A stretch of DNA of 64,000 nucleotides from Sphingobium sp. (GTDB lineage: Bacteria > Pseudomonadota > Alphaproteobacteria > Sphingomonadales > Sphingomonadaceae), in assembly GCA_009360885.1 (NCBI GenBank), contig SPEL01000005.1, positions 124,001-188,000 of the forward strand, read 5' to 3'. Under the pieces are notes generated by a model. That model had not been told where the DNA came from. It did no database searches and worked only from the letters and a program-made list of their open reading frames with translations. The position numbers and the translations under genes are program-made. The first letter of the stretch is position 1, and each line of letters begins with the position of its first letter. Shown here piece by piece: positions 10,642-17,216 of the stretch.

Positions 10642-11265
10642 ATGTTCACCGGCATCATATCCGACATTGGCACCATCCTCTCCGCCGAGATGCGCGGCGA
10701 CCTGCGCCTTGTGATTAGCTGTGCTTATGATGTGGATGGGGTGGATATGGGCGCTTCCATCGCCTGTTCCGGGGCCTGCCTTACCGTAGTGGATAAGGGG
10801 CGGGACGCCGACGGACAGAACTGGTTTGCCATTGACGCCTCCGCCGAAACCATTAGCCGCACCGCGTCAGGCATGTGGGATGCAGGACGTAAGCTCAATC
10901 TGGAACGCGCCCTGAAACTGGGCGAAGAACTGGGCGGCCATATCGTCACCGGCCATGTCGATGGCATTGCAAAGGTGCTGAGCGTCACACCAGAAGGCGA
11001 ATCGCACATCATCCTGTTCTCGGTCCCTGCCGCCATTGCGCCCTATATTGCGGCCAAGGGGTCCGTCACGCTGGACGGCACATCCCTCACGGTTAACAGC
11101 GTAGTGGATGAAGGGAAAGATGCCCATTTCACCGTCAACATCATCCCCCACACATGGGAAATGACGACGCTCTGCCGCCTTGCCCCCGGTGATAGCGTGA
11201 ATGTCGAAATTGATGTGCTGGCGCGTTATTTAATGCGACTGAAGGAACGATCTGCCTTTGCCTGA
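10642..11265 (+). CDS. ribE: Riboflavin synthase, alpha chain
   Basis: This enzyme dismutates two molecules of dimethylribityllumazine to riboflavin. The 207-residue protein begins MFTGIISDIGTI, the classic first strand of the family, and shows the two internal repeats expected of the twin-barrel fold: a first with IACSGACLTV and a second with KGSVTLDGTSLTVN, joined by GGHIVTGHVDG. The ATG at 10642 is chosen for the MFTGI start; the frame opens earlier at 10609. It lies 52 bases after ribD. (The gene is called ribC in Escherichia coli naming.). Confidence 0.95.
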   Translation: MFTGIISDIGTILSAEMRGDLRLVISCAYDVDGVDMGASIACSGACLTVVDKGRDADGQNWFAIDASAETISRTASGMWDAGRKLNLERALKLGEELGGHIVTGHVDGIAKVLSVTPEGESHIILFSVPAAIAPYIAAKGSVTLDGTSLTVNSVVDEGKDAHFTVNIIPHTWEMTTLCRLAPGDSVNVEIDVLARYLMRLKERSAFA

Positions 11266-11277
11266 GCCTGCGCAGCG

Positions 11278-11333
11278 ATGTGACATGAAATGTGATTAAT
11301 GGATTTGACATTCACATTTTAATGTGATTTCTA
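11278..11333 (+). promoter_or_regulatory. Probable ribB operator/promoter with perfect palindrome
   Basis: Just before the ribB ATG (11341) lies TCACATTTTAATGTGA (11312-11327), two perfect 7-bp arms with a 2-base gap. Further half-sites ATGTGA start at 11278 and 11290. A TTGACA at 11305-11310 stands exactly 17 bases before TTTCTA at 11328, so the palindrome would fill the promoter spacer; TTTAAT at 11318 is another possible -10. With either reading the transcript would start at or very near the ATG, and no ribosome site is visible. That RibB's own helix-turn-helix binds here is inference. Confidence 0.55.
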
Positions 11334-11340
11334 CCGCAGC

Positions 11341-12636
11341 ATGTCTACACAGCTTCTTCAGCAGATTGAAAATCTGGTTCATCAGGGTGAAATATCCCGT
11401 TCCGGCCTCGCGCGCGCCGCAGGCCTCCACGCCAACAGCCTGCGTAAGCTGGGCGAAAGCGACTGGAACCCCACAGCCGACACGCTTTCCAAGCTGGAAT
11501 CCTATCTGCTGAAACGCGAAAGCGGCACCGCCCTCGCCAGCCCCGAAGAAATCATCAACGAAGCCCGCAATGGCCGCATGTTCATCCTAGTGGATGACGA
11601 AGACCGCGAAAATGAAGGCGACCTCGTCATTCCCGCCCAGATGGCAACCCCGGATGCCATCAACTTCATGGCGACCCATGGACGCGGCCTCATCTGCCTC
11701 GCCCTTACCAAGGCCCGTGTGGATGAACTGGGCCTCGACCTGATGAGCCGCAACAACGGCACCCGCCACGAAACAGCCTTCACCACTTCGATCGAGGCAC
11801 TGGAAGGTGTTACCACCGGCATTTCCGCCGCTGATCGCGCCCGCACCGTTTCCGTCGCCATCGACGCTTCTAAGGGCAAAGCCGACATTGTAACGCCCGG
11901 CCATGTCTTTCCTCTGGTGGCAAAGGATGGGGGCGTCCTCATTCGCACCGGACATACCGAAGCCGCCGTTGACGTAGCGCGTCTGGCGGGCCTCAACCCA
12001 TCGGGCGTTATCTGCGAAATTATGAATGATAATGGCACGATGGCACGGCTGGATGACCTCATCCCCTTCGCCCGCAAACATGGCCTGAAAATCGGCACGA
12101 TTGCGGACCTTATCGCCTATCGCCGTCGTCATGACCATCTGGTGGAACGCCGCACTGAAACCCGCTTCACCAGCCAATGGGGTGGGGAATGGAGCGCCAT
12201 CAGCTTTTACAATAAAGCATCCCGCACCGAGCAAATTGTGCTGCAAAAAGGCAAGGTAGACCCCGATCAGCCAACATTGGTGCGTATGCATCAGCTTGCG
12301 CTGCTGGATGATGTTTATGGCCAGACCAGCACAAGAGCCAACCTTCTTTCCCGCTCGATGGAAATCATCGGCGAAGAAGGCGCAGGCATTATCGTCGTGC
12401 TGACCAGCACTTCTCGCGACGATTTCATCACCCGGTCATTAAACCAGCAAGCAGGCCGCCCACAGGCAAAGGATGAAAACGGGGCAGATGAACTGCGTAA
12501 TTATGGCATTGGCGCACAGATATTGGCCGATCTGGGCGTGCAGGACATGATCCTGCTGTCTAATACGCAGCACAGCCTTGTCGCACTGGATGGCTATGGC
12601 CTGACGGTTGTCGGCCAGCGCGCCATTGATCTGTAA
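11341..12636 (+). CDS. ribB: Dihydroxybutanone phosphate synthase with N-terminal helix-turn-helix and inactive RibA-like domain (RibBX type)
   Basis: RibB makes the four-carbon precursor of riboflavin from ribulose 5-phosphate. Residues about 17-56 (ISRSGLARAAGLHANSLRK, then WNPTADTLSKLESYL) form a Cro/Xre-like helix-turn-helix. Residues about 68-265 are the synthase, with DDEDRENEGD (85-94), TGHTEAAVDVARLAG and MNDNGTMAR. The C-terminal part (about 270-431) has the fold of GTP cyclohydrolase II, but the zinc Cys residues are gone (VYGQTSTRANLL where RibA has three Cys), so it cannot be catalytic. True RibA is encoded at 16143. The gene has its own upstream operator-like region and no ribosome site. 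Fusion of a DNA-binding domain suggests autoregulation. Confidence 0.93.
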   Translation: MSTQLLQQIENLVHQGEISRSGLARAAGLHANSLRKLGESDWNPTADTLSKLESYLLKRESGTALASPEEIINEARNGRMFILVDDEDRENEGDLVIPAQMATPDAINFMATHGRGLICLALTKARVDELGLDLMSRNNGTRHETAFTTSIEALEGVTTGISAADRARTVSVAIDASKGKADIVTPGHVFPLVAKDGGVLIRTGHTEAAVDVARLAGLNPSGVICEIMNDNGTMARLDDLIPFARKHGLKIGTIADLIAYRRRHDHLVERRTETRFTSQWGGEWSAISFYNKASRTEQIVLQKGKVDPDQPTLVRMHQLALLDDVYGQTSTRANLLSRSMEIIGEEGAGIIVVLTSTSRDDFITRSLNQQAGRPQAKDENGADELRNYGIGAQILADLGVQDMILLSNTQHSLVALDGYGLTVVGQRAIDL

Positions 12637-12675
12637 AGCTCAATCGACCTGCAAAGCCCAATCGACCTGCAAAGC
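12623..12675 (+). repeat. Three 18-bp tandem units over the ribB stop codon
   Basis: CATTGATCTGTAAAGC at 12623, CAATCGACCTGCAAAGC at 12641 and the same again at 12659 are spaced exactly 18 bases. The first unit contains the last two ribB codons and its TAA stop; the next two lost the stop (TAA became CAA). This looks like a local duplication of the gene end. Confidence 0.75.
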
Positions 12676-12808: not shown

Positions 12809-13231
12809 ATGGCTCATTTTCTTATCGTCGAAGCCCGTTTTTACGACCATCTCAATGACCTGCTGATTGCGGGCGCACAGGCCGCGCTGGACGCCGCCGG
12901 CCATAGCCATGAAGTCATCACCGTACCCGGCGCATTGGAAATCCCCGGCGCGGTGGCACTGGCATCCGAAAGTGGCCGCTATGATGGTTTTGTCGCCATC
13001 GGCGTTATCATTCGCGGTGAAACCTATCATTTTGAGGTGGTTTCCAACGAAAGCGCCCGCGGTCTGATGGCCCTCACCATGGATGGTATCCCGATTGGCA
13101 ATGGCATTTTGACCGTCGAGAATGAGGCGCAGGCCCTCACCCGCGCCCGGCCTGATGAAAAGGACAAGGGCGGGGAAGCAGCTAAGGCCGCTATCCGTAT
13201 GCTGGAACTGCGCACATCCTTCGTGGGCTGA
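12809..13231 (+). CDS. ribH: 6,7-dimethyl-8-ribityllumazine synthase RibH
   Basis: RibH condenses the RibA/RibD product with the RibB product to form lumazine. The 140-residue protein begins [15 protein letters not shown], has [14 protein letters not shown], the [22 protein letters not shown] stretch (residues about 68-88, containing the catalytic His), and [14 protein letters not shown]. Length is normal. It lies 172 bases after ribB, a gap that contains the 18-bp repeat and no gene. It closes the riboflavin cluster. Confidence 0.95.
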
Positions 13232-15348: not shown

Positions 15349-16143
15349 ATGCCTCAAAATCTTAAAATCGCATCCTGGAATATCAACAGCGTCCGCGCCC
15401 GGCTCGACATTGTCACCCGCTTCCTGACAGAAGAAGCGCCCGACATATTGTGCCTGCAAGAAACCAAAGTGGTAGATAACACCTTTCCCGGCGGGATATT
15501 CCGTCAACTGGGTTATAATCATCAGATATTGCATGGTCAGCCGATGCACCATGGCGTTGCCATCCTTAGCAAAGTACCGATTCGCGAAGATGACCGGCTC
15601 GACTGGCAAGCCAATGGTGAGGCCCGCCATGTCGGTGTGCGACTGGACAACGGCATCCGTCTGGAAAATGTTTATATCCCCGCCGGGGGTGAGGAACCTG
15701 ATCGCACGATCAACCCCAAATTCGGGCAGAAGCTCGATTTTCTGGAACGGATGATCGATTGGGCCGCCAAGCTCGACAAACCCACCATATTGACCGGCGA
15801 TTTCAATATTGCGCCGCTCGAATCAGATGTGTGGAGCCATAAACAACTGGTCAATGTCGTCAGCCACACCCCGGTTGAGGTTGATTTGCTGGGCCGCCTT
15901 CAGGCCGCGCATAACTGGGTCGATATTGGCCGCAAATTTTACCCCGCGCCGCAACGCCTCTATACATGGTGGAGCTATCGCGCACGCGATTGGCAGGCGT
16001 CTGACCGGGGCCGCCGCCTCGACCATATGTGGGTCAGCCCGGAACTGGCGGATAAGGCAACCGCGCACCGCGTCGCGGAACCTTGCCGCGGCTGGATGCG
16101 CCCGTCCGATCATGCGCCGCTCATCACCGAGTTCAGCTTCTGA
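15349..16143 (+). CDS. xthA: Exodeoxyribonuclease III (AP endonuclease)
   Basis: This Mg-dependent nuclease cuts DNA at abasic sites and trims 3' blocks in base-excision repair. The 264-residue protein has the family motifs in order: KIASWNINSVRAR, the metal-binding Glu in LCLQETKV, VYIPAGG, GDFNIAP with the catalytic Asp and Asn, RRLDHMWVSP and the C-terminal SDHAPLI with the catalytic His. Length is normal. GGGGA lies 8 bases before the ATG. Its TGA overlaps the ribA ATG (TGATGA), so ribA is probably translated by coupling. It is preceded by a triple palindromic repeat. Confidence 0.95.
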   Translation: MPQNLKIASWNINSVRARLDIVTRFLTEEAPDILCLQETKVVDNTFPGGIFRQLGYNHQILHGQPMHHGVAILSKVPIREDDRLDWQANGEARHVGVRLDNGIRLENVYIPAGGEEPDRTINPKFGQKLDFLERMIDWAAKLDKPTILTGDFNIAPLESDVWSHKQLVNVVSHTPVEVDLLGRLQAAHNWVDIGRKFYPAPQRLYTWWSYRARDWQASDRGRRLDHMWVSPELADKATAHRVAEPCRGWMRPSDHAPLITEFSF

Positions 16144-17216
16144 TGACAGACGCCGAAGCCAGCCGGTCTGTTGCGCGCACTATCGACGCGTTGCGCCGTG
16201 GCTGGCCGGTGGAGGTGCGCGCCGGGGATGAAAAGCTACGCCTGCTGGCGGTGGAAAGCGCGGACGAAGATAGCCTCCCCGCTTTTAACCCGGACGGGCA
16301 AGCTCCCATCCTCATTTCCGCGGCCCGTGCGCAAACTTTGCGCCTTGCCAATCAGCGCGAAGCAGCAGCCCCCGAAGCGCCCGTATTGGTGCAACGGGAA
16401 AGCTGGATTGATGCGGCAGGCGCAATGGCGCTGGCGGACCCAGTAACGGACCTTGCGACCCCGCTGAAAGGCCCCTATCGCGCCCTGCCGCTGGCTATGC
16501 CCCATGCAGCAAGTGCAGCACTGAAACTCGCGCGGCAGGCAGGGATATTACCCGCCTTCTTCATCGGGGATGAGACTGCCCCCTATGAGGCCAGCGCTGA
16601 TGCCTCCGCAATCGACGCTTATGACGGCGGCGCATTACTGCACATCGCCACACGGGCTAAGCTGCCGGTTAGCGTATCGGAACAAGCCGAAATCGTGGCA
16701 TTTCGTACACCCGGCGACTCCCGCGAACATATTGCCCTCATCATCGGCAAGCGCGATGGCAGCACTCCCATAGTGCGCCTGCATAGCGAATGCTTGACCG
16801 GCGATGTACTAGGCAGCCTCAAATGTGATTGCGGACCGCAGCTTCATTCCGCCCTCCACCGCATGACGGAGGCAGACTGGGGCGTGCTGCTCTATTTGCG
16901 GCAGGAAGGGCGCGGCATCGGCCTCATTAACAAGCTGCGCGCCTATGCATTGCAGGATCAGGGCTTTGACACGGTCGATGCCAATGTGCGGCTCGGCTTT
17001 TCCATTGATGCGCGGGATTTTTCGGTCGCCTCGCAAATGCTTAAGCTGCTGTCCATACCGGAGGTAAAGCTGCTCACCAACAACCCCGCAAAGGTTGCTC
17101 GATTAGAAGCGGAGGGGATCACAGTAGCCGAACGCCTGCCGCTCGCCATTACCGCTAACCCTCATAATGCGCGCTATCTCGATACCAAGAGGGACCGCAC
17201 CGGGCATCAGCTATGA
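16143..17216 (+). CDS. ribA: GTP cyclohydrolase II RibA with N-terminal extension
   Basis: RibA opens the ring of GTP, the first step of riboflavin synthesis. The catalytic domain occupies about residues 180-357: RLHSECLTGDVLGS with LKCDCGPQ gives the three zinc Cys (217, 228, 230), followed by YLRQEGRGIGLINKLRAYALQDQG and the GTP-binding C-terminus. Residues 1-175 form an Ala-rich extension of about the size of a synthase domain but without the DDEDRENEG motif of RibB, as seen in other alphaproteobacterial RibA. The ATG at 16143 overlaps the xthA stop. The active partner to the dead RibA half of the ribB product. Confidence 0.93.
   Translation: MTDAEASRSVARTIDALRRGWPVEVRAGDEKLRLLAVESADEDSLPAFNPDGQAPILISAARAQTLRLANQREAAAPEAPVLVQRESWIDAAGAMALADPVTDLATPLKGPYRALPLAMPHAASAALKLARQAGILPAFFIGDETAPYEASADASAIDAYDGGALLHIATRAKLPVSVSEQAEIVAFRTPGDSREHIALIIGKRDGSTPIVRLHSECLTGDVLGSLKCDCGPQLHSALHRMTEADWGVLLYLRQEGRGIGLINKLRAYALQDQGFDTVDANVRLGFSIDARDFSVASQMLKLLSIPEVKLLTNNPAKVARLEAEGITVAERLPLAITANPHNARYLDTKRDRTGHQL

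Follow-up and report, generated by a model that had tools for sequence, protein, structure and literature searches.

The ribB gene of a Sphingobium sp. contig (SPEL01000005.1) lies directly behind an inverted repeat and encodes an enzyme that begins with a helix-turn-helix (HTH) domain, raising the question of whether the enzyme binds and controls its own promoter. We conclude that the RibB of many Sphingomonadaceae is probably (at a probability of about 0.82) both an enzyme and a repressor of its own gene's transcription. Homology, conservation, co-occurrence of domain and operator, a site with nearly a single target, and a common promoter layout, all established by sequence comparison, carry this reading.

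The riboflavin genes and the RibB protein

Within the 64,000-nucleotide stretch of DNA that was analysed (the window), the riboflavin genes follow the order ribD, ribE, ribB, and ribH, with a separate ribA further on (ribD, ribE, and ribH are named by sequence and position; Table 1). The lumazine synthase gene, ribH, is perhaps under the same promoter as ribB. In the gap between these two genes, directly after the ribB stop codon, CAATCGACCTGCAAAGC occurs twice in tandem (12641-12675; period 18).

Table 1. Features of the ribB region (window coordinates)
Feature	Coordinates	Strand	Basis and remarks
ribE	10642..11265	+	Sequence and position; start set at an ATG inside the listed ORF (10609); gene end adjoins the operator region
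Extra half-site ATGTGA	11279..11284	+	Sequence; 33 bp upstream of the palindrome, beyond the stretch covered by the promoter consensus
Upstream half-site AATGTGATT	11290..11295	+	22 bp from the palindrome start; conserved in HTH-ribB promoters
Putative -35 element TTGACA	11305..11310	+	Sequence; the genus-consensus TTG lies two bases further upstream than in the window
Candidate operator in the -35/-10 spacer	11312..11327	+	Sequence and family conservation
-10 position TTTCTA	11328..11333	+	Spacing only
ribB (RibBX protein)	11341..12636	+	ORF list, Pfam/TIGR domains
N-terminal Cro/XRE-like HTH of RibB, residues 1-62 (about)	11341..11526	+	Homology and predicted fold; putative recognition helix LHANSLR (residues 29-35)
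ribH (lumazine synthase)	12809..13231	+	Next gene downstream of ribB; sequence and position
Separate RibA with zinc cysteines SECLTGDVLGSLKCDCG	16083..17216	+	TIGR00505, 227 bits (cut-off, 206)

The synthase domain of RibB (residues 69-260) is intact (TIGR00506, 234 bits against a cut-off of 177), and its residues D85, D86, D88-D94 (except E87), and G204-A208 are invariant among 36 proteins. The GTP cyclohydrolase II (GCHII) half (residues 270-426) is degenerate, reaching 50 bits with TIGR00505 against a cut-off of 206, which agrees with the original prediction that this RibA-like half had lost its zinc cysteines. The separate RibA keeps these cysteines; as such, GCHII activity is supplied elsewhere than by RibB.

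The original prediction also placed an HTH at the N terminus of RibB, and the domain is indeed there, homologous to Cro-type proteins. It scores below the Pfam cut-offs (HTH_26, 16.2 bits versus 22; HTH_3, 14.7 bits versus 23), and a sequence search of solved structures yielded a best E value of 0.015. A model of residues 1-63 (pLDDT 87.6) has helices at residues 2-14, 20-27, and 46-62, with no helix assigned by DSSP at the putative recognition segment (residues 29-36); the full-length RibB model is mediocre (pLDDT 71.7). In Foldseek searches with the HTH model, HipB and C-proteins ranked highest, ahead of 434 Cro, 434 repressor, and P22 c2, all at weak E values: the top matches had probabilities of 0.96 to 0.99 but E values of at least 0.15 and TM scores of about 0.6. 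Five residues of the putative recognition helix (L29, H30, N32, L34, and R35) are invariant among 36 diverse proteins.

Operator and promoter upstream of ribB

The candidate operator, TCACATTTTAATGTGA, reads TCACATT-TT-AATGTGA. Its two 7-bp inverted arms are perfect, as had been claimed; the central TT is not symmetric, making the element a 7-2-7 inverted repeat and not the fully perfect 16-mer of the original prediction (for brevity, we retain the term palindrome). Its placement in the 17-base spacer after TTGACA is borne out, in that the 17 bases following this hexamer end exactly with the palindrome, and one of two additional ATGTGA half-sites was located correctly (at 11290), whereas the other starts at 11279 rather than 11278. 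The sequence at the -10 position is a poor match, and a promoter scan of the window listed no sigma-70 site at the position of the palindrome and TTGACA.

By chance, 0.33 matches to the operator with three or fewer mismatches would be expected within the window. In the genome assembly to which the window belongs (G000; 2.93 Mb, 79.6% complete), the palindrome is the sole match at zero or one mismatch in the 14 fixed bases, with nine further places at two mismatches. Both the palindrome and the HTH recur across the family, far above chance.

Co-occurrence of HTH and operator among relatives

The original prediction had proposed, as a check, that palindrome and HTH should co-occur across sphingomonads. 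Scoring each locus by its best match, over 14 fixed bases, to TCACATTNNAATGTGA upstream of ribB, we found that they do: every one of the 102 HTH-ribB loci whose recognition helix is normal reaches 10/14 or more, and 100 of them reach 11 or more. The 10/14 level is reached by 58 of 60 loci of the genus and by 44 of 44 HTH loci from the rest of the family, the weakest operators being those of L050 and L063 (10/14). Two second HTH-RibBX copies (L143 in G048 and L145 in G019) have the helix LPSGGLR instead of LH[APV]N[ST]LR, and their upstream regions hold no operator of the ribB type (score below 10/14). In a second set, drawn from Sphingobium, Sphingomonas, Blastomonas, and Sphingorhabdus, among others, and made up of the best 80 of 570 confirmed stretches, all loci score at least 11/14; many of them come from the same genomes as the 102-locus set.

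Among 73 HTH-less ribB loci, for which longer upstream stretches were scanned than for HTH loci, none reaches 11/14 and one reaches 10. These comprise 36 loci (maximum, 9), 8 paralogs (maximum, 10), and 29 loci from the same family (maximum, 9); L265, with only 48 bases upstream of residue 66, was left out of the count, and L308 and L309 lie outside the scored loci. At least 159 of 199 family genomes contain a match to the HTH profile (E value of 1e-4), whether in a fused or a stand-alone protein. In a separate search of 37 genomes, 3 gave no match. Across the class, 4 of 289 genomes match at 1e-6, three from the same family and one with a stand-alone gene. Several lineages of the family lack both HTH and operator.

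On a tree of the RibBX domains (HTH excluded; 125 rows), the presence of the HTH and that of the operator (at least 10/14) are identical in every row, and seven changes are needed. The sample included 19 of the 60 genus loci and left out L091, for which the reading was truncated, as well as L087, L088, L143, L145, and L147-L154. Independent pairs on supported branches agree in five cases against none (p = 0.0625), five pairs being too few for this test to reach 0.05. A single deletion can remove both the operator and the adjoining HTH codons, such that the count of co-losses overstates their independence and the tree test alone is not decisive.

HTH-RibB is also carried on Novosphingobium plasmids (L319, at about 3001, and L320, at about 2001), in L319 behind genes for a UbiB kinase and an iron-redox enzyme. 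In their promoters, both loci have a palindrome (6/6 and 5/6) that lies 42 nt from the ATG, along with another ATGTGA half-site.

Number of targets

Among 80 genomes, 38 contain the exact operator pattern, TCACATNNNNATGTGA, with 41 occurrences in all, of which 37 are at ribB by their coordinates. All 41 fall in the 60 HTH-bearing genomes and none in the 20 HTH-less genomes; a reversed control pattern occurs at one place in the same 80. Among the HTH-bearing genomes, 23 lack an exact site at ribB and have a looser one there, and 56 have no exact site away from it. A larger regulon was considered and dropped: the four exact sites away from ribB (L304 to L307) are treated as chance occurrences, one lying inside an ORF and none but L304 being near a riboflavin gene. 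At L304 (1430-1445 in G084), the exact operator stands behind ribB, ribH, and an aldo/keto-reductase-like gene, and the operator of ribB itself in G084 has two mismatches. A CRP-like site, suggested by the letters TGTGA/TCACA, was also dropped, given that exact sites are hardly found outside ribB and that the halves of the CRP consensus stand in the inverse order to those of the ribB palindrome.

These counts bear on the possibility that the palindrome is the operator of a regulator encoded elsewhere, with the HTH of RibB serving protein contacts or nothing at all. Such an arrangement could produce the association we observe, which is seen within one family and between two physically adjacent elements, but a regulator acting in trans would normally be expected to have more targets than a site found at ribB in 37 of 41 cases. 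Moreover, the 20 HTH-less genomes contain no exact site, the 29 HTH-less ribB loci of the same family have no operator, and the two paralogs with a changed recognition helix lack the site. Together with the recurrence of the same layout in 8 of 10 Cro homologs (see below), this makes a separate regulator improbable.

Operator anatomy

In each arm, the six outer positions hold 1.5 to 2.0 bits in the genus and 1.3 to 2.0 bits in other family members, against mostly 0.6 bits or less per position outside the operator, the half-site, and the TTG; all of these values are inflated, as the alignment placed each promoter by its best match to the pattern. The upstream half-site (ATGTGAT, at least 6/7) is present in 87 of 102 HTH-ribB promoters, in 84 of them at 20 to 23 bp (about two helical turns) from the start of the palindrome; control windows contain it in 1 of 102 cases. 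The gap between palindrome and ATG is 7 to 20 nt in 46 of the 102 promoters and 27 to 51 nt in the other 56. With 13 nt, the window belongs to the short class, and a leaderless ribB mRNA, as originally proposed, may apply there; it does not extend to the genus as a whole, where 47 of 58 promoters have a long gap (34 to 51 nt), many with a GGAG box.

Such conservation is difficult to reconcile with a frozen, phage-derived remnant of the fusion event that has no regulatory role and is kept as a promoter only. A remnant would fit the several lineages that live without both elements and the weak operators of L050 and L063; it would not be expected to hold five helix residues invariant among 36 diverse proteins or to keep the outer arms nearly invariant, and we give this explanation very little weight.

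Phage Cro relatives

Cro of temperate phages such as lambda and 434 is a small HTH protein whose gene lies just behind a promoter-overlapping operator, divergent from the CI gene. The HTH of RibB is homologous to genes of about 65 residues in the Cro position of phages and prophages (44% identity over 59 residues between the HTH encoded in the window and L311; E value of 8.9e-28 in a single hhalign comparison of the RibB-HTH and Cro profiles), a tie that the original prediction had missed, and its stand-alone relatives stand at the cro position within phage-like regions. The Cro-like gene of L155, for example, is followed by genes for an HNH endonuclease and a cytosine methylase, and the divergent neighbors in L155 and L302 are assigned to Peptidase_S24 by Pfam and to phage repressors by PHROGs. 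A full-length CI-like gene adjoins 6 of 10 Cro-like genes (L155, L156, L301, L302, L311, and L318, the last being Pseudanabaena phage Pan3, ON968454.1). In tblastn searches with the L155 repressor, full-length relatives (54 to 69% identity) were found beside the other five, similarity confined to the HTH part beside L273 and L316, and no relative beside L313 or L315. Six IMG/VR contigs hold such Cro-like genes, with L313 and L314 being near copies and L312 the same as L155; L155 and L156 are closely related. The Cro-like ORF of Pan3 (L318, 3001-3186) is unannotated, and the annotation instead has two hypothetical proteins over it on the opposite strand, one of which overlaps the CI-like repressor.

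The promoter of L311 (half-site ATGTGATT, 21 bp, TCACATTCAGATGTGT, 13 nt, ATG) follows the same plan as that of ribB. A 6-4-6 palindrome lies 10 to 16 nt before the ATG in 8 of 10 Cro-like genes (five at 6/6 and three at 5/6), compared with 0.54% (6/6) and 5.1% (5/6), together 5.6%, of 2,774 control ATGs in the window. For L313 and L315 the best match is 4/6, and for L326, which is more distantly related, it is 3/6, which amounts to no palindrome. A class-wide search with the Cro profile matched 69 of 386 genomes at 1e-4, mostly weakly; two of its loci (L333 and L334) contained no suitable ORF.

In a tree of the HTH domains (63 columns), a single RibB clade is neither recovered nor rejected (p-AU = 0.31), and the origin of the fused domain is not resolved. 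We nevertheless consider capture from phage to host the likelier direction, as the phage members are more varied in both helix and operator and the fused form is found in one family only.

The kinship of the two promoters could also mean that the operator serves mainly for cross-regulation, with prophage CI or Cro acting on ribB or RibB on prophage promoters, and the cro promoter of a prophage from the same family (L277/L311) does carry an almost identical operator; with 56 of 60 HTH-bearing genomes lacking an exact site away from ribB, and with L311 alone among the 10 Cro-like genes having an operator close to the ribB type, this is highly unlikely.

Recognition helix and half-site letters

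The letters of the half-site change, for the most part, with the recognition helix. RibB helices of the form LH[APV]N[ST]LR mostly go with ATGTGA or GTGTGA, LHRNTLR goes with ATGTGC, ATATGC accompanies the three helices whose last residue is L, Y, or N, and MSDTTLR and LKDTTLR go with ATGCGA (in the better half). Across few independent cases, Arg or His at residue 31 thus correlates with a final C, and loss of Arg 35 with a third base that is A and not G. Not every case conforms: one half ends in C in L315 (LHPNTLR), in G in L313, and in T in L311.

FMN riboswitch and the RibX half

FMN riboswitches are described as a key control of riboflavin genes in prokaryotes (PMC12542839). The original prediction held that the RibB operator replaces this riboswitch, which our comparison does not support. 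An Rfam search of the window returned two tRNAs only and no FMN riboswitch, and RF00050 was detected in just 1 of 80 genomes, the other 79 including 19 of the 20 without the HTH (under the same strict filters, by which some weak matches are lost, 7 of 14 control genomes were positive). Given that HTH-less relatives mostly lack the riboswitch too, it has not simply been replaced. The sole exception, in the HTH-less genome G064 (C1:1017386-1017534), adjoins a separate short ribB match (C1:1016622-1017272) and not ribBX. Among top-ranked open-access papers in PMC, we found no report of any other riboflavin control in sphingomonads and none of an HTH-bearing or DNA-binding RibB.

A second proposal, that the inactive RibX half acts as a sensor linked to the operator, likewise finds no support. 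Not one of the 125 RibX domains, 63 of which come with an HTH and 62 without, keeps the three GCHII cysteines: all 125 lack the first and second, and 124 lack the third. Since proteins with and without the HTH alike have lost the cysteines, the dead RibX half is independent of that domain. In Shewanella, the X domain of RibBX influences RibB activity by a mechanism that is not known, according to the relevant section of PMC10012899; RibX may thus have a regulatory role, but one not tied to the ribB operator.

A proposed model of autogenous repression

The core of the original prediction, that RibB binds its own promoter, is favored by comparison: domain and operator occur and are absent together, the site is nearly exclusive to ribB, and homologous Cro genes have promoters of the same kind. 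We propose that the promoter, operator, and HTH coding region would represent one captured cro module placed before a ribBX gene. RibB enzymes are dimers, which fits a two-fold operator; the two HTHs of a dimer would bind the 7-2-7 palindrome in the -35/-10 spacer, with binding assisted by the upstream half-site about two helical turns away. As the palindrome sits where RNA polymerase must, occupancy should repress, and bound RibB would block the polymerase, keeping ribB (and perhaps ribH) at a level set by its own product. Dimer binding, repression rather than activation, and modulation by substrate or flavin are what we infer from this arrangement.

A wider version of the model is more tentative, and we hold it to be somewhat doubtful: a whole phage lysis-lysogeny module (promoter, half-site and palindrome, near-leaderless start, and Cro DNA-binding domain) might have been transplanted before RibB, yielding a repressor tuned by enzymatic state or flavin supply and belonging to an HTH family with a readable code, from residues 31 and 35 to half-site letters.

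Relation to known systems

RibBX proteins were reportedly the subject of Brutinel et al. in 2013, and RibBX without an HTH is present in other families of the order. The description in PMC10012899, as far as the consulted part goes, is of a RibB followed by a RibA-like domain without the residues needed for zinc binding, which matches the RibB and cysteine-less RibA-like domain found here; that part makes no mention of an N-terminal HTH or an operator. The closest known class is that of the trigger enzymes, which in E. coli include BirA, NadR, PepA, PutA, and PyrH, with PutA being a single-target repressor of its own promoter region (PMC8249747, in the part consulted). Like these metabolic enzymes that also act on transcription, RibB combines an intact catalytic domain with a predicted DNA-binding domain in the same polypeptide and a putative cognate operator at its own promoter. 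It differs from them in belonging to the riboflavin pathway, in being an unrelated enzyme, and in having an HTH homologous to phage Cro and a Cro-type promoter layout.

Unlike phage Cro, the HTH of RibB forms part of an enzyme, and what lies upstream is ribE, on the same strand, rather than a divergent repressor gene; a stand-alone gene divergent from CI is seen in the six phage-like loci with full-length CI-like neighbors. The archaeal regulator RbkR, an HTH-riboflavin kinase, resembles RibB in joining an HTH to a flavin-pathway enzyme but is archaeal and combines another enzyme with another class of HTH.

Implications

If RibB represses itself, a large environmental family would have a protein-based control of riboflavin synthesis, and riboflavin would join the short list of pathways with trigger enzymes. 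It would also be a clear example of a phage repressor and its operator being taken over jointly by an enzyme of the host, and a specificity code for the RibB-type Cro family would become testable.
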